From Magnetococcales bacterium DCbin4 (GTDB lineage Bacteria; Pseudomonadota; Magnetococcia; Magnetococcales; UBA8363): a stretch of 60,406 nt of DNA. The stretch lies in NCBI GenBank assembly GCA_002753735.1, contig PEAN01000019.1, positions 1 to 60,406 on the forward strand, given 5' to 3'. The stretch's first letter is position 1; every line of letters starts with the position of its first letter. The translations under genes were made by a program, and so were the position numbers. The notes beneath the pieces are model-generated. The model had not been told where the DNA came from, did no database searches, and saw nothing but the letters and a program-made list of their open reading frames with translations. This document shows, piece by piece, positions 1-60,388 of the stretch.

Positions 1-101
1 GGTTTTGACTTTGATTTTGATTTTGATTTTGACTTTGATTTCATATCCCCCACAGGGGGTTTGGGGGACGAAGTCCCCCAAGGTTTAGACTTTGGTGATT
101 G
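1..101 (+). repeat. Composite hairpin/(TTTTGA)n repeat, copy 1 (cut by window edge)
   Basis: It begins with a degenerate run of TTTTGA/TTTGA hexamers (1-40). Two GC hairpins follow: CCCCC-ACA-GGGGG (47-59) and a 9-bp perfect stem TTGGGGGAC / GTCCCCCAA with loop GAA (61-81). The tail, GGTTTAGACTTTGGTGAT, ends near 101. It matches the stretch starting at 170 almost base for base, except for one extra hexamer. It lies downstream of the 3' end of the minus-strand thrB and contains no believable gene. The part before base 1 is not visible. Confidence 0.85.
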
Positions 102-138
102 ACCGGGGTCGAGTGTGAGGGGGAGGAAAATGATTAAA

Positions 139-265
139 AGAAAAAAGGGGTCTGGGGGATTGCCCCCAGGGTTTTGACTTTGATTTTGATTTTGACTTTG
201 ATTTCATATCCCCCACAGGGGGTTTGGGGGACGAAGTCCCCCAAGGTTTAGACCTTGGTGATCGA
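139..265 (+). repeat. Composite hairpin/(TTTTGA)n repeat, copy 2 (complete)
   Basis: The complete unit has four parts. An A-rich run (139-147) is followed by GGGG and hairpin A: CTGGGGG (152-158), loop ATTG, CCCCCAG (163-169). A TTTTGA hexamer tract spans about 172-204. Hairpins B and C are CCCCC/GGGGG and TTGGGGGAC (224-232) / GTCCCCCAA (236-244). The tail GGTTTAGACCTTGGTGATCGA closes the unit. Read from thrB on the minus strand, hairpin A is followed by ACCCCTTTTTTCTTTT, a good intrinsic-terminator shape. The 266-386 stretch up to thrB shows nothing I can name. Confidence 0.85.
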
Positions 266-386
266 TCACAATCATAATAAAATAACCTTTGACAATATCC
301 TTCCCCAGAACCCTTGTTTTTCTTGATCGTATCCAAAAGCGGGGGGATCTGAATGGTTGAACAACGCATTCCAGGCTTGGCGCGGT

Positions 387-1325
387 TTAATATTTTTGGA
401 AATACCGCAGCCTCGCCATGAAGCTTTCAGGATTGCGCCGGGTCACGGTGGCCCCCTGACGAGGAAAACAATGATCATGGAACCGGCTGAGGCTGAAACG
501 AAACGCAGCGGCCCGGCAGGCGGGGATCATCTGATTTTGTTCCTCGCGGGAGCGTGGTCGCACCTGGTCATAGCCTTGCAGCAAGGCATCGATCCGTTCC
601 TCATGGGGTACGCCAGCATCGTCCAGACACCAGGAACACAGACAGACCGCCAGGTCATACAGCCATGGTCCGTGGCAGGCACTGTAGAAATCGATGATGC
701 CGGTCAGGTCGTCGCCGGAAAAGAGGGTGTTGTCGGGAAACAGATCGCCGTGACACAGCCCCGAGGGCAGGTTGAGGGAAAACCAATGAAGCCGTAACCA
801 GGTGAGTTCGTTTTTGAACCAGGAGACGATGTCCTGGTCAATCAGATCGACGGCGGTTGCAAGACGATGGATCATGGGTTCCCATGCCTCGGGCCGCATC
901 CGTCCGGGTGGGGGGGCGGGAATGGTGGCGCCATGCAGATGGATGCGTCCGAGCCAGAGACCCAGTTGGTGGCATTGTTGCGGGGTGGGGGGATCGGGGG
1001 AGATGCCGGGCAGCAGGGTGACCAGGAGCGCGGGACGATCCGCCAGCATGAACAGAGCCTGACCCTGGTCGTCCTTGATGGGGCGGGGGACGGGGAGTTG
1101 ATGGCGGGAGAGTTCATCCAGCAGACGCACGACAAAGGGGAGGGCGGCGGCTTCCTCTGGATGTTCCACCAGGGTGAGGATGAATATTCCCCTGGGGGTG
1201 GTCAGGCGGAAATTGCTGTTGATGATCCCCTGGGCGATGGCTTCCAGATGCAACGGTGGACCCAGGGATCGTGCCCGGGTGAACGGTTCAAGATTTTCTA
1301 TTTGGACGACCGTATAAACCGACAA
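387..1325 (-). CDS. thrB: Homoserine kinase ThrB (APH-fold type)
   Basis: It phosphorylates L-homoserine with ATP to O-phosphohomoserine, the step before threonine synthase. This is the aminoglycoside-phosphotransferase-fold homoserine kinase of proteobacteria, not the GHMP-fold type. The protein is 312 residues, starting SVYTVVQIENLEPF. The catalytic loop CHGDLFPDN is at about 191-199 (Asp194, Asn199), followed by the metal-binding IDFYSA motif (Asp212). I chose a TTG start at 1325 because the family begins at this point and GGAG sits about 9 nt upstream. The frame stays open far beyond it, across ubiX and ubiU, but that is antisense read-through. The gene is divergent from ubiX, with 12 bp between the start codons. 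Confidence 0.9.
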   Translation of the reverse strand: MSVYTVVQIENLEPFTRARSLGPPLHLEAIAQGIINSNFRLTTPRGIFILTLVEHPEEAAALPFVVRLLDELSRHQLPVPRPIKDDQGQALFMLADRPALLVTLLPGISPDPPTPQQCHQLGLWLGRIHLHGATIPAPPPGRMRPEAWEPMIHRLATAVDLIDQDIVSWFKNELTWLRLHWFSLNLPSGLCHGDLFPDNTLFSGDDLTGIIDFYSACHGPWLYDLAVCLCSWCLDDAGVPHEERIDALLQGYDQVRPRSREEQNQMIPACRAAAFRFSLSRFHDHCFPRQGATVTRRNPESFMARLRYFQKY

Positions 1326-1337
1326 GTGAGGCGCTCC

Positions 1338-1973
1338 ATGGAACGAGGGTGTACGTCCGGGACATCGATCACGCTGGCGTTGACGGGGGCCTCGGGGGCG
1401 GTTTATGGCCTGCGTTTGGCGGAAGCCCTGTTGCTGGCGGGTCAGGCGGTCGATGTGCTGCTTTCCACTGCTTCCCGTACTGTACTGGCTCGGGAATGTG
1501 GACTCAATGTCCAGGGTGATGGGGACGCGGTGGTTCGGGCGTTTCGGCAATGGTCCAGCCATCCCGGAGCGGCGGATGTGTATCGCCATCTGCGGCATCA
1601 TTCCTTGATGGATTGGGATTCCCCTCTGGCTTCGGGTTCCGGGGGGCGGAGGCGGATGGTCATTTGTCCCTGTTCCATGGGGACGTTGGCGGCGGTGGCC
1701 ATGGGATTGTCGGACAATCTGATCGAACGGGCTGCCGATGTGGTGATCAAGGAACGGGGCGAATTGATTCTGGTTCCCCGGGAAACACCCTTGTCGGCCA
1801 TCCATCTGGAACACATGCTGCGCCTGACCCGGATGGGGGTGATGGTGTTGCCCGCCGCTCCCGGTTTCTATCACCAGCCACAAAAGGTATCGGACCTGGT
1901 CGATTTCATCGTGGCCCGGATTCTGGATCAGTTGGGGGTGGCGCAACGATTCATGCCCGCATGGGGGCGGTGA
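1338..1973 (+). CDS. ubiX: Flavin prenyltransferase UbiX
   Basis: UbiX attaches a dimethylallyl group to FMN, making the prenyl-FMN cofactor needed by the UbiD decarboxylase in ubiquinone synthesis. The product is 211 aa. The Rossmann-like start LALTGASGAVYGLRLAEALL is at about 13-32. The PCSMGTLAAVAMGLSDNLIERA segment and the C-terminal PRETPLSAIHLEHML and PAAPGFYHQPQ motifs are typical of the family. The ATG at 1338 is the only reasonable start ahead of the conserved core. Its promoter would have to lie inside thrB. It heads a group with ubiU, ubiV and ubiK. UbiX and Pad1 are the same family, but the context favours the quinone role. Confidence 0.92.
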   Translation: MERGCTSGTSITLALTGASGAVYGLRLAEALLLAGQAVDVLLSTASRTVLARECGLNVQGDGDAVVRAFRQWSSHPGAADVYRHLRHHSLMDWDSPLASGSGGRRRMVICPCSMGTLAAVAMGLSDNLIERAADVVIKERGELILVPRETPLSAIHLEHMLRLTRMGVMVLPAAPGFYHQPQKVSDLVDFIVARILDQLGVAQRFMPAWGR

Positions 1974-2001
1974 AAAATGGCATGGAGCGAAAATACCTTT
2001 T

Positions 2002-2030
2002 TTGCCAATTGTCTCCAAGTGGGATAGACT
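2002..2030 (+). promoter_or_regulatory. Putative sigma70 promoter for ubiUV
   Basis: TTGCCA (2002-2007), a 17-bp spacer and TAGACT (2025-2030) lie in the 108-bp gap between ubiX and ubiU, about 50 nt before the ubiU start. Agreement with consensus is 5/6 and 4/6. I see no clear FNR palindrome (TTGAT-N4-ATCAA) next to it. Assigned by eye. Confidence 0.35.
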
Positions 2031-2081
2031 GCCGTATCGTGTGGATTCAGGGGGGGATGGTCTCGAGTTGGAGCGCCTGGA

Positions 2082-3089
2082 ATGGGAACAAAGGTTGAAG
2101 TGTTGGCACCGGCAGGTAATCTTCCCTCGTTGCGTGCCGCTGTGGACAATGGAGCGGATGCGGTCTATTTCGGGTTTCGCAATGCCACGAATGCCCGCAA
2201 TTTTGAAGGTTTGAATTTCAGCCTGAGCGATGCCGAAGCGGGCATCGCCTATGCCCACCGGCATGGCGTCAAGGCCAATGTGGTTTTGAACACCTTTCCG
2301 CAGGCGGATGACCCGGGGCTTTGGTATCAGACGGTCGATCAAACGGTCGCCCTGGGTGCCGATGCCATCATCATGGCCAATCTGGCGTTGCTCGATTATT
2401 GCCATGAGCGCCATCCCCGCCTGCCCATCCATTTGTCGGTCCAGGCTTCCGCCAGCAATGCCCCCGCCATCAATTTCTACCAACGTCATTTCGGCATCAA
2501 TCGGGTGATCCTCCCCCGGGTGTTGACGGTCGAGGAGATTCGTTCCCTGCGCAGCCGTACCGAGGTCGATCTGGAGGTGTTTGCCTTTGGTGGTTTGTGT
2601 GTCATGGCGGAGGGACGGTGTTATCTGTCCTCGTTTGCCACCGGGGTATCTCCCAATATCGAGGGGGTTTGTTCTCCGGCACGCGCGGTCCGTTTTGAAA
2701 ATGCGGGTTCCCGCCTGAAAACCCGGTTGGGAGAACTGTTGATTGCCGAATACGGTTCCGATGAGGATGCCGCCTATCCGACCGTCTGCAAGGGGCGGTT
2801 CGAGGCCAATGGGCGGGTGTATCACACGATGGAGGAACCGGGATCGTTGAATATTCTGGAAATGTTGCCCGCGGTGATTGAGGCGGGGGTGGTTTCCCTG
2901 AAGATCGAGGGACGCCAGCGGACCAAATCCTATGTGGCGACGGTGACCCGTATTCTCAGACAGGCGGTCGATTCCTATTATGAAAATCCCGCTTCGTTTC
3001 ATCCCAAGGGGAAATGGATCAAGGAATTGAATGCGACCTCGGAGGGGGCGACCCATACCTTGGGGACCTATGAACAACGGTGGCAGTGA
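2082..3089 (+). CDS. ubiU: Ubiquinone biosynthesis protein UbiU (U32 family, O2-independent)
   Basis: UbiU forms a heterodimer with UbiV that hydroxylates ubiquinone precursors without O2, using prephenate as oxygen donor in the E. coli work. The product is 335 aa with a peptidase-U32-like barrel. Four cysteines sit at 173, 180, 197 and 236 (GLC, GRC, GVC, TVC). Their spacing equals that of the [4Fe-4S] ligands of E. coli UbiU (169, 176, 193, 232). The ATG at 2082 has GGAG 8 nt upstream. The stop codon shares one base with the ubiV start (TGATG), indicating translational coupling. The cysteine pattern separates it from the RlhA and TrhP U32 proteins. Confidence 0.92.
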   Translation: MGTKVEVLAPAGNLPSLRAAVDNGADAVYFGFRNATNARNFEGLNFSLSDAEAGIAYAHRHGVKANVVLNTFPQADDPGLWYQTVDQTVALGADAIIMANLALLDYCHERHPRLPIHLSVQASASNAPAINFYQRHFGINRVILPRVLTVEEIRSLRSRTEVDLEVFAFGGLCVMAEGRCYLSSFATGVSPNIEGVCSPARAVRFENAGSRLKTRLGELLIAEYGSDEDAAYPTVCKGRFEANGRVYHTMEEPGSLNILEMLPAVIEAGVVSLKIEGRQRTKSYVATVTRILRQAVDSYYENPASFHPKGKWIKELNATSEGATHTLGTYEQRWQ

Positions 3090-4012
3090 TGCGAATCAGT
3101 CTTGGACCGTGTCCGTTTGACTGGGGCAGGAATGCCCTGAAGGATTTTTACAAAAAGATGGCCTTTGAAACGCCGATCGATATTTTATACATCGGTGAAG
3201 TGGTCTGTTCCAAACGGCAATCATTGACGCCCGAGGAGATGGTGGAGCTGGCACGGGCGCTTGCCCCTTCGGGAAAGGAGATCGTCTTTTCCACGTTGGG
3301 ACTGGTGATGAATGCGGGGGAGGAGGATTTGTTGCATCGGATTGCGGCGGCGGCGGCGACCGGTGATTGGTGGCTGGAGGCCAATGACATGGGGGGAATC
3401 GCGGTGGGGGAAGGGCGTCCCATGGTGGCGGGACCGCATATCACCACCTACAATCCTGATACGGTTGCGTTTCTTGCCAAGGTCGGTGTTCGCCGGGTGG
3501 TGTTCCCGGTCGAGTTGTCGGCGCAGGCGATGGCGGCCTTGATCCGTCGTCAGGGTGAAGGGATGGAGGCGGAGGTTTTTGCTTATGGAAAACTGCCTCT
3601 GACCTTTTCCGCCCGTTGTTATACGGCGCGGGCATTTCGTTTTTCGAAGGCCAATTGCCAGTTCAAATGTAGTGATTTTCCCGATGGGTTGACCATGCGG
3701 ACCCAGGAGGGGGTTCCTTTTTTATCCATTAACGGCACCCAGACCTTGTCGCACCGTATTTATAACCTGGCCGATGAGACCGACCACCTGGAACGAATGG
3801 GGGTCAAGGTGGTTCGGCTGTCGCCGCAGAGTGCGCGCATGGGTGAGGTCATCGCGGTGTGGCATGACCGGTTGCGGCGGCGCATCAGCGATGCAGAGGC
3901 ATGGAACCGATTGTTGGAACTCAATGGTGGCGAGCCGTTTTGCAATGGTTATTTCAATGGACGGCCCGGGCTTGAGTGGGTGGAACCGGGGGCGCGGCCA
4001 GAAAAAAATTGA
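3089..4012 (+). CDS. ubiV: Ubiquinone biosynthesis protein UbiV (U32 family, O2-independent)
   Basis: This is the partner of UbiU in the O2-independent hydroxylation of the quinone ring. From the ATG at 3089 it is 307 aa, beginning MRISLGPCPFDWGR. Cysteines at 40, 177, 190 and 194 (EVVC, ARC, ANCQFKC) match the cluster ligands of E. coli UbiV, including the 13- and 4-residue spacings of the last three. A GTG nine bases upstream is possible, but the TGATG junction with ubiU fits coupled translation. A hairpin repeat begins directly after its stop codon, which may end or attenuate the transcript before ubiK. Confidence 0.92.
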   Translation: MRISLGPCPFDWGRNALKDFYKKMAFETPIDILYIGEVVCSKRQSLTPEEMVELARALAPSGKEIVFSTLGLVMNAGEEDLLHRIAAAAATGDWWLEANDMGGIAVGEGRPMVAGPHITTYNPDTVAFLAKVGVRRVVFPVELSAQAMAALIRRQGEGMEAEVFAYGKLPLTFSARCYTARAFRFSKANCQFKCSDFPDGLTMRTQEGVPFLSINGTQTLSHRIYNLADETDHLERMGVKVVRLSPQSARMGEVIAVWHDRLRRRISDAEAWNRLLELNGGEPFCNGYFNGRPGLEWVEPGARPEKN

Positions 4013-4060
4013 CAAGAAAAAAAAGGGATCTGGGGGATCGCCCCCAGGGTGTTGATTTTG
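4013..4060 (+). repeat. Dispersed hairpin repeat, short form, 3' of ubiV
   Basis: An A-rich run (about 4014-4024), GGG and the stem CTGGGGG (4030-4036), loop ATCG, CCCCCAG (4041-4047) are followed by GGGTGTTGATTTTGTTTTC. This is the first module of the larger repeat at 139-265, without the later GC hairpins. The loop differs by one base from the other copies while the stem is identical. It begins at the ubiV stop codon and ends just before the ubiK ribosome-binding site (AAGGA at 4066). A terminator-like role is an inference. Confidence 0.8.
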
Positions 4061-4078
4061 TTTTCAAGGACAATGACG

Positions 4079-4330
4079 ATGCAAATTGACAATGCAATAC
4101 TCGATCAGATCACCCAGAATGTTCTGGGGGTCTTCAACATGGTGGGACAGACCCGGGAAGAGATGACGCGCAAAATTCGCGACCTGGTCCAGGAAGGGGT
4201 CGAACATTTTGACCTGGTGAGCCGGGAAGAGTTCGATGCGGCCCGTGATTTGTTGAGCAAAACCCGGATCAAGCTGGAACAATTGGAAAAACAGGTCGCC
4301 GAGATGGAACGGGCACAGGCAAGATCATAG
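4079..4330 (+). CDS. ubiK: Ubiquinone biosynthesis accessory factor UbiK (BMFP/YqiC family)
   Basis: This small 83-aa protein belongs to the family that helps the soluble Ubi complex, with UbiJ, act on lipid-bound intermediates under aerobic conditions. The N-terminal half (DQITQNVLGVFNMVGQTREE) is a predicted amphipathic region. The C-terminal half (about 50-80, ARDLLSKTRIKLEQLEKQVA) is a coiled coil with leucine heptads. I chose ATG 4079 over ATG 4073 because AAGGA lies 8 nt upstream of 4079 and only 2 nt from 4073. It is the fourth quinone gene in a row with ubiX, ubiU and ubiV. Confidence 0.88.
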   Translation: MQIDNAILDQITQNVLGVFNMVGQTREEMTRKIRDLVQEGVEHFDLVSREEFDAARDLLSKTRIKLEQLEKQVAEMERAQARS

Positions 4331-4366
4331 GCGGCATTCGGCGATTTGGACCATGGTGAGGGGATG

Positions 4367-5905
4367 ATGTTGGTACGTGTGCAGACGGTGGCGTTGGATG
4401 GGATCAAAGCGGTTTCCGTCGAGGTCGAAGTCGATTTCAGTCCTGGATTGCCAATTTTAGGGATCGTGGGTCTGCCGGAAGGGGCGGTACGCGAAGCCAA
4501 GGATCGGGTGCGTGCGGCTCTGGGCAATTCTGGATTTCATCTGCCGGCCAAAAGGATCATCATCAACCTGGCCCCGGCCCATTTGCCCAAGGGCGGGTCT
4601 TCGTATGATCTCCCCATGGCGCTGGGGTTGTTGGTGGCCATGGGAAAAGTGCCGGGGGAACGGTTGTCGGGATGTCTGTTTTTTGGTGAATTGTCTCTGG
4701 ATGGTCGTTTGCGCGGGGTTCCCGGGGTGTTGCCGGTGGCCTTGTTTGCCAGAAGTGCCGGTTTCGGGCGGTTGATGGTTGCCCGGGAAAATGGCAGTGA
4801 GGCGGCTTTGGTGCCGGATCTTGCGGTTTTTGCCCCGGAAACGTTGTTGGATCTGGTCAAGCATTTGATGGGTGAAGTGCCATTGGCCCCGCTGCCCGCC
4901 ACCGACTGGCATGGTTGGCAGGAGGAGGCGCAGGGAGAGATTCCCGATCTCGCCGAGATCAAGGGCCAGGAATATGCCAAGCGGGCGTTGGAGATTGCGG
5001 CGGCGGGGGGGCACAACATGTTGATGACCGGCCCACCCGGGTCGGGGAAGACGTTTCTGGCCCGGGCGATGCCGGGGATCCTGCCGGAAATGTCGTTGGA
5101 TGAAGCGTTGGAGGTCACGGCGATTCATTCCGTCGCGGGGCGCTTGTCTCCTTCCAGGCCGTTTGTTGCCACCCGTCCTTTTCGCTCGCCACATCATACC
5201 GCCTCAAAAAATTCCCTGGTGGGGGGTGGGGGGCAACCGCATCCGGGAGAAGTGAGTCTGGCGCACAAGGGGGTGTTGTTTCTGGATGAAATCCCCGAAT
5301 TCAGCCGAACCGTCCTGGAAGTCCTGCGTGAACCGCTTGAATCGGGTGAGGCGCATATTTCCCGAACCAGTTATTCCGCCCGTTTCCCTGCCGATTTTCA
5401 ATTATTGGCGGCATGCAATCCCTGTCCTTGTGGCCATTTGGGCCATGGTGGGCGTCCCTGCCGTTGTTCACCGGCCCAGGTGGCGGGTTATCAATCACGA
5501 TTGTCGGGACCGTTGTTGGATCGGATCGATTTGCATGTGGAGGTGCCGCCGGTCCCTGCCGAGGTGTTGGTGGCGTTGCCATCGGGGGAATCGTCGCGGC
5601 AGGTGCGTGCAAGGGTCATGCGTGCCCGGTCGATCCAGTATGAACGCAATGGGATGGGGATCCGCAATTCTGTTTTGAATGGGAAGGCTTTGGAGCATCA
5701 TGCGTCGCTGGCGGCTCCGGTGCGGCGTATTTTACTGGATGCGGGGCAGCGAATGGGGTTTTCGGCGCGTGCCCATGGCCGGTTGTTGCGGGTGGCCCGA
5801 ACGGTGGCCGACCTGGCTCCTTCCGCAGAGATCGCGGTAGAACACATGGCCGAGGCGATTCAGTTCCGGATCGGGGGATTGGGGAGCTGGGGTGGGGTCG
5901 GATAG
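4367..5905 (+). CDS. comM: ComM/YifB family Mg-chelatase-like AAA+ ATPase
   Basis: ComM is a hexameric AAA+ helicase that promotes branch migration when naturally acquired DNA is integrated. The family is also found in species not known to be competent. The product is 512 aa. The N-terminal ComM/Lon-like domain covers about 1-170 (VDFSPGLPILGIVGLPEGAV). Walker A GPPGSGKT is at 222-229, Walker B LFLDE at about 304-308. A zinc-like cluster, CNPCPCGHLGHGGRPCRCSP, comes before the C-terminal lid domain. Two adjacent ATG codons (4364, 4367) are possible. The second gives better spacing to GAGGGG. It is 36 nt after ubiK and may be co-transcribed. Confidence 0.92.
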   Translation: MLVRVQTVALDGIKAVSVEVEVDFSPGLPILGIVGLPEGAVREAKDRVRAALGNSGFHLPAKRIIINLAPAHLPKGGSSYDLPMALGLLVAMGKVPGERLSGCLFFGELSLDGRLRGVPGVLPVALFARSAGFGRLMVARENGSEAALVPDLAVFAPETLLDLVKHLMGEVPLAPLPATDWHGWQEEAQGEIPDLAEIKGQEYAKRALEIAAAGGHNMLMTGPPGSGKTFLARAMPGILPEMSLDEALEVTAIHSVAGRLSPSRPFVATRPFRSPHHTASKNSLVGGGGQPHPGEVSLAHKGVLFLDEIPEFSRTVLEVLREPLESGEAHISRTSYSARFPADFQLLAACNPCPCGHLGHGGRPCRCSPAQVAGYQSRLSGPLLDRIDLHVEVPPVPAEVLVALPSGESSRQVRARVMRARSIQYERNGMGIRNSVLNGKALEHHASLAAPVRRILLDAGQRMGFSARAHGRLLRVARTVADLAPSAEIAVEHMAEAIQFRIGGLGSWGGVG

Positions 5906-6449: not shown

Positions 6450-7049
6450 TCAGAGCGATTTGGCGTGGGCTGCAAGATATTCCGCCACACCGCTGATCGA
6501 GGCTTTCATGGAGGGTTTCTTTTTGTCCCAACCGGCAGGGCAGACTTCGCCGTGGGTTTCGGTGAACTGAAGGGCATCGACCATGCGCAGCATTTCGTCG
6601 ATGTTGCGTCCGAGGGGAAGGTCATTGACCACCTGATGGCGCACGATCCCCGCCTTGTCGATGAGGAAGGAACCACGCAGGGCGATGCCCGGGCCGAAAT
6701 AGAGGTCGTAATTTTTGGTGATCTCCTTCGAGATGTCGGCGACGAGGGGATATTGCACATTGCCGATGCCACCCTGGTTGACCGGGGTATTTTTCCAGGC
6801 CAGGTGGGTGAAGTGGGAATCGATGGAGACTCCGATGACTTCGACGCCGCGTTCTTTGAACTCTTTCAGGCGATGGTCGAAGGCGATGATTTCCGAGGGG
6901 CAGACGAAGGTGAAATCAAGGGGATAGAAGAACAGAACGACATATTTGCCCTTGAAGCTGGCCAGGGAGAAATCGTCTTTGAAGGAGTTGTCGGGCATGA
7001 CGGCGGTGGCGGTGAAGTCGGGTGCGGGTTTGGTGACAAGAACGCTCAT
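6450..7049 (-). CDS. Peroxiredoxin, typical 2-Cys (AhpC/Prx1 type)
   Basis: This thiol peroxidase reduces H2O2 and organic peroxides. The product is 199 aa. The peroxidatic Cys50 lies in FYPLDFTFVCPSE, the resolving Cys170 in HGEVCPAGW, and the C-terminal tail after 180 is that of the Prx1 subgroup. The segment YFGPGIALRGSFLID replaces the more usual GVAFRG region. No reductase (AhpF) is adjacent, so thioredoxin is the likely electron donor. It is first in a two-gene minus-strand operon with the superoxide reductase 35 nt downstream. It diverges from an XRE-cupin regulator. Confidence 0.92.
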   Translation of the reverse strand: MSVLVTKPAPDFTATAVMPDNSFKDDFSLASFKGKYVVLFFYPLDFTFVCPSEIIAFDHRLKEFKERGVEVIGVSIDSHFTHLAWKNTPVNQGGIGNVQYPLVADISKEITKNYDLYFGPGIALRGSFLIDKAGIVRHQVVNDLPLGRNIDEMLRMVDALQFTETHGEVCPAGWDKKKPSMKASISGVAEYLAAHAKSL

Positions 7050-60317: not shown

Positions 60318-60332
60318 TCAATAAATTATTGA
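60318..60332. repeat. Perfect inverted repeat 3' of mltA
   Basis: TCAATAA-A-TTATTGA, a perfect 7-bp dyad with one central base, sits at the border of the dispersed repeat. A second small dyad, AATGTG-T-CACATT, lies at 60282-60294. Both have centres too small for a hairpin, so a DNA-bound protein is more likely, if they act at all. Confidence 0.45.
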
Positions 60333-60388
60333 AAGAAAAAAGGGGTCTGGGGGATTGCCCCCAGGGTGTTGATTTTGATTTTGTTTTT
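60333..60388 (+). repeat. Dispersed hairpin repeat, short form, 3' of mltA
   Basis: GAAAAAAGGGG-like start, stem CTGGGGG (60347-60353), loop ATTG, CCCCCAG (60358-60364), then GGTGTTGATTTTGATTTTG. It is the same module as at 139-171 and 4013-4060, in the same orientation. Confidence 0.85.

Follow-up and report, generated by a model that had tools for sequence, protein, structure and literature searches.

The hairpin that recurs in the window, that is, in the whole stretch of DNA analysed here (60,406 nucleotides, the start of contig C123 of genome G000), is very probably one arm of a non-autonomous, interspersed inverted-repeat element of the fold-back, MITE-like type, which carries IS66-type ends in a minority of its copies and may act at the 3' ends of genes. 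The repeat constitutes a new, genus-restricted family of an already known kind, most similar, as judged by description, to the pneumococcal BOX, RUP and SPRITE repeats. It amounts to 193 arms in G000 and approximately 250 per genome in two relatives, which makes it an interspersed repeat family of high copy number in uncultured Magnetococcales, and it cautions that a hairpin repeated behind stop codons is not necessarily a terminator by origin.

Three exact stems of the form CTGGGGG-NNNN-CCCCCAG are present in the window, at positions 152-169, 4030-4047 and 60347-60364 (loops ATTG, ATCG and ATTG, respectively). They share one orientation, and each is preceded by an A-run and followed by a T-rich tail, in agreement with the initial annotation, which had described a single hairpin module of this composition at three loci. 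With three mismatches allowed, the hairpin pattern was found 10 times in the window versus 5.3 times expected; this number is not clearly rare, as 5 of 100 shuffled sequences also reached it. The repeat features of the window are the following:

1-115, plus strand: interior of a further copy, truncated by the contig start, with TTTTGA repeats and the hairpins CCCCCACAGGGGG and GGGGGACGAAGTCCCCC
128-181, plus strand: repeat arm with hairpin CTGGGGGATTGCCCCCAG at 152-169 (exact match; arm HMM match at 128-181)
182-362, plus strand: interior of the element whose arm is 128-181, with TTTTGA repeats and two further G5/C5 hairpins (from the sequence)
4006-4059, plus strand: single arm with the hairpin at 4030-4047 (loop ATCG), between the ubiV stop and the BMFP gene (from the sequence and the arm HMM)
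60322-60376, plus strand: arm with the hairpin at 60347-60364, 3' of mltA and near the window end (from the sequence and the arm HMM)

The truncated copy at the contig start stands in tandem with the next one, the two sharing a 93-nt direct repeat (10-102 and 173-265, 97% identical). Segment 339-362, compared by eye with GCAACCATTCAGATCCCCCCGC of locus L160 and with IS66-type ends, resembles a degenerate IS66-like end in reverse complement. The three hairpins had been proposed to mark the 3' ends of thrB, ubiV and mltA, and for the latter two genes this proves correct. The hairpin at 4030-4047 starts 17 nt past the stop codon of UbiV (NCBIfam NF047965, 326.5 bits, cut-off 275) and ends 31 nt ahead of a BMFP-family gene (4079-4330; Pfam), while that at 60347-60364 starts 81 nt past the stop codon of an MltA-family protein (Pfam PF03562, 201.8 bits; NCBIfam murein transglycosylase A, 181.3 bits, below the cut-off of 242). 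The thrB 3' end could not be confirmed, because the contig begins at base 1 and no gene end lies ahead of the copy at 152; Pfam and NCBIfam revealed no thrB beside this copy, the ORF on its 3' side (357-797) matched no family of either collection at the thresholds used, and the gene that follows this ORF is UbiX-like. The gene order within 867-5905 is ubiX-like, ubiU, ubiV, BMFP and Mg-chelatase ChlI-like, the arm sitting between ubiV and BMFP. A search of the window with Rfam gave no match at or above the gathering score other than tRNAs.

The G000 genome (4,521,331 bases in 148 contigs) contains 178 exact hairpins, and the same pattern read backwards, used as a control, is absent from it. 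Counted across genomes as a 36-nt arm with up to 3 mismatches, the repeat was found in all 8 genomes of the genus (193 arms in G000 and between 12 and 254 per genome in the other seven; controls 0) and in none of 40 genomes of other genera of the order (same threshold, controls 0). A scan of named genomes returned at least 97 stretches, and all matches listed came from DCbin2, nWRX3bin6, nHA5abin3 and C5_bin.1, which are Magnetococcales MAGs. No exact 25-nt match was found in viral contigs. In literature searches, the 18-mer (in either reading) and the IS66-like end were not found in text, and the titles and abstract openings returned for Magnetococcales repeats described no such repeat. Many draft contigs of G003, G004 and G000 begin or end within approximately 100 bases of an arm, i.e. 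the assemblies break inside the element, and a lone arm at a contig end may stem from a pair that the assembly split.

The hairpin forms the inner part of an arm of approximately 50 bp. In the consensus of 155 arms, chosen by their exact stem, AAAATTATTRAAAGAAAAAAGGGGT precedes the hairpin and GGGTTTTGA(T/C)TTT follows it; conservation in this profile is also strong well outside the stem, the stem itself being fixed by the choice of arms. Exact arms less than 1 kb apart were convergent in 31 of 31 pairs, with their A-sides outward (spans 66-440 bp). When the arm HMM was used, which also finds decayed arms, 66 of 75 neighbours within 600 bp were convergent, 4 divergent and 5 tandem (spans 65-486 bp), and 59 of the 66 convergent pairs span 110-320 bp. 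The interior of the element is variable and T/A-rich, contains TTTTGA-type repeats and is largely self-complementary. Folded as single-stranded DNA, the two-arm copy at L163, whose left hairpin is a decayed form, reaches -53.7 kcal/mol, compared with -26.4 kcal/mol for its shuffles (z = -8.3; 0 of 200 shuffles as good). These elements are short, lack a transposase gene and possess terminal inverted repeats in the form of convergent arms, all of which are structural properties of MITEs.

Another property of MITEs, presence or absence at orthologous sites, was observed in the ubiV gap, at mltA and at two sites that differ between G003 and G004. The gap between ubiV and the BMFP gene contains the arm in one of seven genomes (G000 only) and lacks it in all six relatives with an identified ubiV (the gene was not found in G001, which is left out of the comparison). 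Downstream of mltA, the arm is present in two of seven genomes (G003, where mltA was not found, being left out): G006 has a complete two-arm element at this locus (L203), and G000 has the first arm, its sequence ending soon after. No arm was found at the mltA loci of G001, G002, G004, G005 and G007, the last of which covers only approximately 170 nt of flank, with another repeat. In two relatives, the gap on the 3' side of ubiV contains other repeats. In G007 (L195) these are TTTTGA repeats and G/C-rich hairpins with no CTGGGGG arm, perhaps a sister repeat family, and in G005 (L200) it is a palindromic repeat of another sort, with stems of the TTCCCGCGAAAGCGGGAA and CCCCGCTTTCGCGGGG types.

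In the comparison of G003 with G004 (flanks 89-96% identical), the element occupies two sites in G003 that are empty in G004, and both empty alleles carry unmatched sequence (28 and 43 bp). The contrasts between L083 and L085, and between L089 (with L100) and L093, point in the same direction. None of the filled/empty contrasts compared contained a clean, seamless empty allele. Because the contrast between occupied and empty sites is not limited to the element, the G003/G004 difference could also reflect loss in the other lineage. Synteny between these two genomes breaks at element copies (L211:6057-6235, L211:8959-9173 and L212:12248-12265, some of the comparisons being confused by contig ends), as if the copies served as recombination sites. 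A segment of approximately 820 bp with an open frame (L243, ~3554-4375; G004, contig C77) is missing from G003 and is unrelated to the hairpin.

Part of the arms carry an outer end, GTAAC(C/T)(A/G)TTCAGNNCCCC, located approximately 40-60 nt outside the hairpin. It was found at 9 of 60 G000 arms, 16 of 141 arms of the named MAGs and 2 of 41 further G003 arms, with an estimated chance expectation of well under one per set; the remaining arms have no such end. This end is shared with autonomous ISs of the genus. Locus L249 (G001) consists of perfect 22-bp terminal repeats around a 476-aa IS66 transposase (NF033517, 300.6 bits, cut-off 180), and L256 (G000) of a perfect 19-bp terminal repeat around a 549-aa IS66 transposase (195.1 bits). 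In three G000 arms with different flanks, the first 19 bases from GTAAC are identical to the end of L249. This best-matching IS, whose flanks GGAGGAAG and CGAGGAAG are alike at 7 of 8 bases, sits in another species (G001) with only 12 arm copies, and no hairpin arm was found in the IS66 loci inspected, L249 included. In the available part of PMC3281130, IS66 elements are tabulated with 8 in a column that we read as the duplication length.

Flanks measured from the IS66-type ends were alike at 7-8 of 8 bases in 4 of 21 candidate convergent pairs enclosing a hairpin, a number equalled or exceeded in 0 of 5000 flank shuffles (mean 0.3). Exact 8-bp duplications flank the copies at L046 (TTTTCGCC) and L261 of G000 (AAAATGAG), and the flanks at L263 and L160 are alike at 7 of 8 bases. 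The 21 pairs include several that, by eye, are not true element ends (three rows of L043, L070, L166, L173, L187 and two alternative pairings of L160), all of which were counted. Outside this count, L268 (8 of 8 bases, shifted by one base) and L270 (7 of 8, shifted by six) also appear duplicated by eye, and the flanks of L262 agree at 6 of 8. There was no duplication at the expected place in the complete IS66-ended copies L053, L062, L260, L267 and L269, and none stood out at the core (TATT) boundary in 44 pairs; target-site duplications were seen only in the IS66-ended subset. Since several complete copies with IS66-type ends are flanked by 8-bp target duplications, a subset of the family consists of MITEs with the ends and target duplications of IS66-type elements. 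The family as such belongs to the MITEs by structure and polymorphism, and only the IS66-ended subset also by its ends and duplications. The duplications strengthen the MITE-like reading and lower the probability of two of its rivals, a REPIN and passive recombination.

A second outer end, TAGGGCGTGTTGACATT, was identified at 8 of 60 G000 arms, 37 of 141 named-MAG arms and 12 of 41 further G003 arms; it delimits both sides of four elements of 312-321 bp and of one of 264 bp. The flanks of four elements with this end are C/TA- or CTAG-like, a length that does not suffice to recognise a duplication. A scan of the retrieved DNA for an autonomous IS with the TAGGGCGTGTTGACATT end yielded five MITE-sized pairs only (264-321 bp), and among the ends listed for G000, G003 and G004 no IS-sized pair was seen, convergent pairs occurring only at approximately 310-465 bp. 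A third outer end, GGCACGTCCAAATGCC, is present at 13 of 141 named-MAG arms and 9 of 41 further G003 arms, and at 0 of 60 G000 arms. No recognised outer end was seen at 43 of 60, 73 of 141 and 18 of 41 arms of the G000, named-MAG and further G003 sets, respectively. The family is a mosaic of ends. It is conceivable, though rather doubtful, that a single hairpin core has been re-ended by the terminal repeats of different mobile elements (IS66-type, TAGGGCGTGTTGACATT and GGCACGTCCAAATGCC), with IS66-type ends elsewhere enclosing other cores. An example of the latter is a 60-bp element at L271 (G007, C51:6940-7085) with IS66-type ends around a CCCGCGAAAGCGGG-type palindrome, so that the same ends carry other cores. 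On this view, in which ends could be separated from cores, more than one transposase would move a single portable, bidirectional 3'-end cassette, which the genus would reuse as its gene-end structure. In G007, 257 IS66-type GTAAC ends were counted versus 50 hairpin arms, so that elements with the arm make up only a minority of the carriers of such ends in this relative.

Gene context was analysed in 425 kb of G000 (the window and 40 stretches around listed copies, contigs C1-C55), with genes called by a home-made hexamer script and not by annotation. Of the 74 elements in this sample, 23 have no called gene on one side and were left unclassed. Of the 51 elements with genes on both sides, 14 are located in convergent, 35 in codirectional and 2 in divergent gene pairs, versus 6.8, 36.6 and 7.6 expected from all 330 adjacent gene pairs (p = 0.003). 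Counted by intervals, 11 of 44 convergent and 2 of 49 divergent ones are occupied (p = 0.006), and codirectional intervals (26 of 237) are not clearly different from divergent ones (p = 0.19). Among intervals of at least 120 bp, elements occupy 11 of 18 in the convergent, 26 of 88 in the codirectional and 2 of 41 in the divergent class, but their own presence lengthens the intervals. The gene ends that face an arm are stops in 68 of 100 cases and starts in 32 (p = 0.0004, arms taken as independent); for lone arms alone the figure is 32 stops in 42, and on their inner sides no preference is apparent, with 12 stops and 13 starts. At L173, the element (6872-6985) extends into the 3' end of a called ORF; a stricter rule counts it as outside. 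A location of most copies inside or upstream of genes, which the initial annotation had named as the outcome that would speak against it, was therefore not observed in this part of G000. The available part of PMC3733652 reports the same 3'-end bias for REPs; for pneumococcal repeats, the available part of PMC3049150 attributes this bias to the tolerance of insertions on the 3' side of genes and considers that SPRITE may have been co-opted as a terminator.

The same data can be read differently, namely that the module is a bidirectional intrinsic terminator cassette held at gene ends by selection, its dispersal being secondary. We regard this as possible but unlikely. It is favoured by the G/C stem with an A-run and T-rich sides in all three window copies, by the enrichment between convergent genes and the 68 stops among 100 arm-facing gene ends, and by compensating changes in the stem. 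The stem had been described as fixed and the loop as changing, which holds within the window; elsewhere the stem varies as well, partly with compensating changes. When 226 arms were anchored by their outer sequence, 46 different hairpin strings were distinguished, and 40 of these fold better than the mean of 20 shuffles of their own letters. Pairing is preserved in the variants CTGGGGAA/TTCCCCAG (5 copies), CTGGGGT/ACCCCAG (1 copy) and CCGGGGG/CCCCCGG (1 copy), and is lost in others, GGCTTAAGGG forms among them. Such variation fits a stem whose structure would matter for element movement, for RNA or for both.

Four observations argue against this reading. The arm is absent from the orthologous ubiV gap in 6 of 6 relatives, and this gap, tens of bases between codirectional genes, is an unlikely place for a needed terminator. 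Strong conservation extends well outside the stem, and the 32 starts among the 100 arm-facing gene ends are also at odds with it. The window arms (70-74 nt), folded as RNA, are only 1.1-2.3 sd better than their shuffles. As for the form expected of an intrinsic terminator, a G/C-rich stem with a T-run directly behind it, the stem here comprises 7-8 bp; on the plus strand it is accompanied by GGTTTTGACTTTG or GGTGTTGATTTTG and the T-rich tail is interrupted, and on the minus strand ACCCC or ATCCC stands between the stem and the T-run. The location just downstream of stops expected of intrinsic terminators exists as a tendency (68 of 100 stops, and 2 of 51 elements between divergent genes). The original interpretation as a terminator module was right about the link with 3' ends, as far as the analysed part of G000 shows, and incomplete in that the hairpin is an arm of a dispersed inverted-repeat element, polymorphic in presence and absence. 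A putative side role of the hairpin in termination is plausible.

In the MITE-like reading, which we prefer, two convergent arms, AAAATTATTRAAAGAAAAAAGGGGT-(CTGGGGG-ATTG-CCCCCAG)-GGGTTTTGA..., flank a T/A-rich interior to form an element of usually 110-320 bp. Copies with IS66-type ends would be moved in trans by IS66-type transposases, copies with other ends or no recognised ends may have been moved by other transposases or have decayed, and lone arms (e.g. 4006-4059) would represent remnants. Past a stop codon, the hairpin together with the adjoining A-run and T-rich tail might function as a 3'-end structure, either a terminator or an RNA-stabilising stem, on either strand. This role would be a side effect of the tolerance of insertions at such sites and may have been co-opted at some of them.

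It is improbable that the elements, or at least the copies without IS66-type ends, are REPINs, i.e. two inverted REP hairpins moved by a RAYT (Y1 tyrosine transposase). The convergent hairpin arms, the single-strand fold-back structure and the lack of a duplication at the core boundary would suit a REPIN, and so would the Y1 transposase genes that 7 of the 8 genomes possess, those of G003, G004 and G006 being open. However, the GTAG or CGTC tag by which REP palindromes are defined (PMC3733652, available part) is missing, the 155-arm profile having GGGGT ahead of the stem and GG behind it. Moreover, G000, with approximately 190 copies, has only a weak Y1 match (22.4 bits, or 23.9 with neighbours), G002 has none, and some copies show 8-bp duplications at their IS66-type ends. 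A RAYT gene flanked by the repeat was looked for and rejected, the arm being found at 0 of 11 Y1 loci (flank up to 1.5 kb), with one 17-nt partial match in L152. REPIN membership fails on the tag and on the transposase neighbourhood. The Y1 (IS200-like) genes, at loci L143, L144, L146, L150, L151 and L153, are open in the three genomes named above and interrupted or fragmentary in G001, G005 and G007; genomes with higher copy numbers tend to have open Y1 genes, but G000 has only the weak match and G002 none. Passive spread by homologous recombination or gene conversion, with no transposase, for which the G003/G004 synteny breaks at elements and the mosaic outer ends could be invoked, is very improbable in view of flanks that differ from copy to copy right up to the arm or outer end, and of the 8-bp duplications in some copies.

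Three groups of known systems share features with the Magnetococcales repeat. The IS66 family and IS-derived MITEs, as presented in the available parts of PMC10969869 and PMC3281130, resemble its IS66-ended subset in the outer ends, the 8-bp duplications and the lack of room for a transposase gene; they differ from the repeat in that most of its copies have no IS66-type ends and that the IS66 loci inspected have no hairpin arm. REPINs and REP-BIMEs (PMC3116915 and PMC3733652, available parts) are likewise inverted hairpin doublets that fold as a unit, with singlets that are likely remnants; they are intergenic, mostly between codirectional and convergent genes, and show compensating changes. 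In contrast to them, the repeat has no GTAG/CGTC tag, no adjoining RAYT gene was found, and some copies have 8-bp duplications. The SPRITE, BOX and RUP repeats of Streptococcus pneumoniae are, according to the available part of PMC3049150, short interspersed repeats nearly confined to a species group and over-represented between convergent genes. As described there, BOX is modular, as is the Magnetococcales repeat, and SPRITE, which ends in AAAA/TTTT, has the appearance of a rho-independent terminator close to 3' ends; a target duplication could not be established for it. Compared with these descriptions, the Magnetococcales repeat is distinguished by another host, convergent pairs of hairpin arms, a G/C-rich stem and, in some copies, IS66-type ends.
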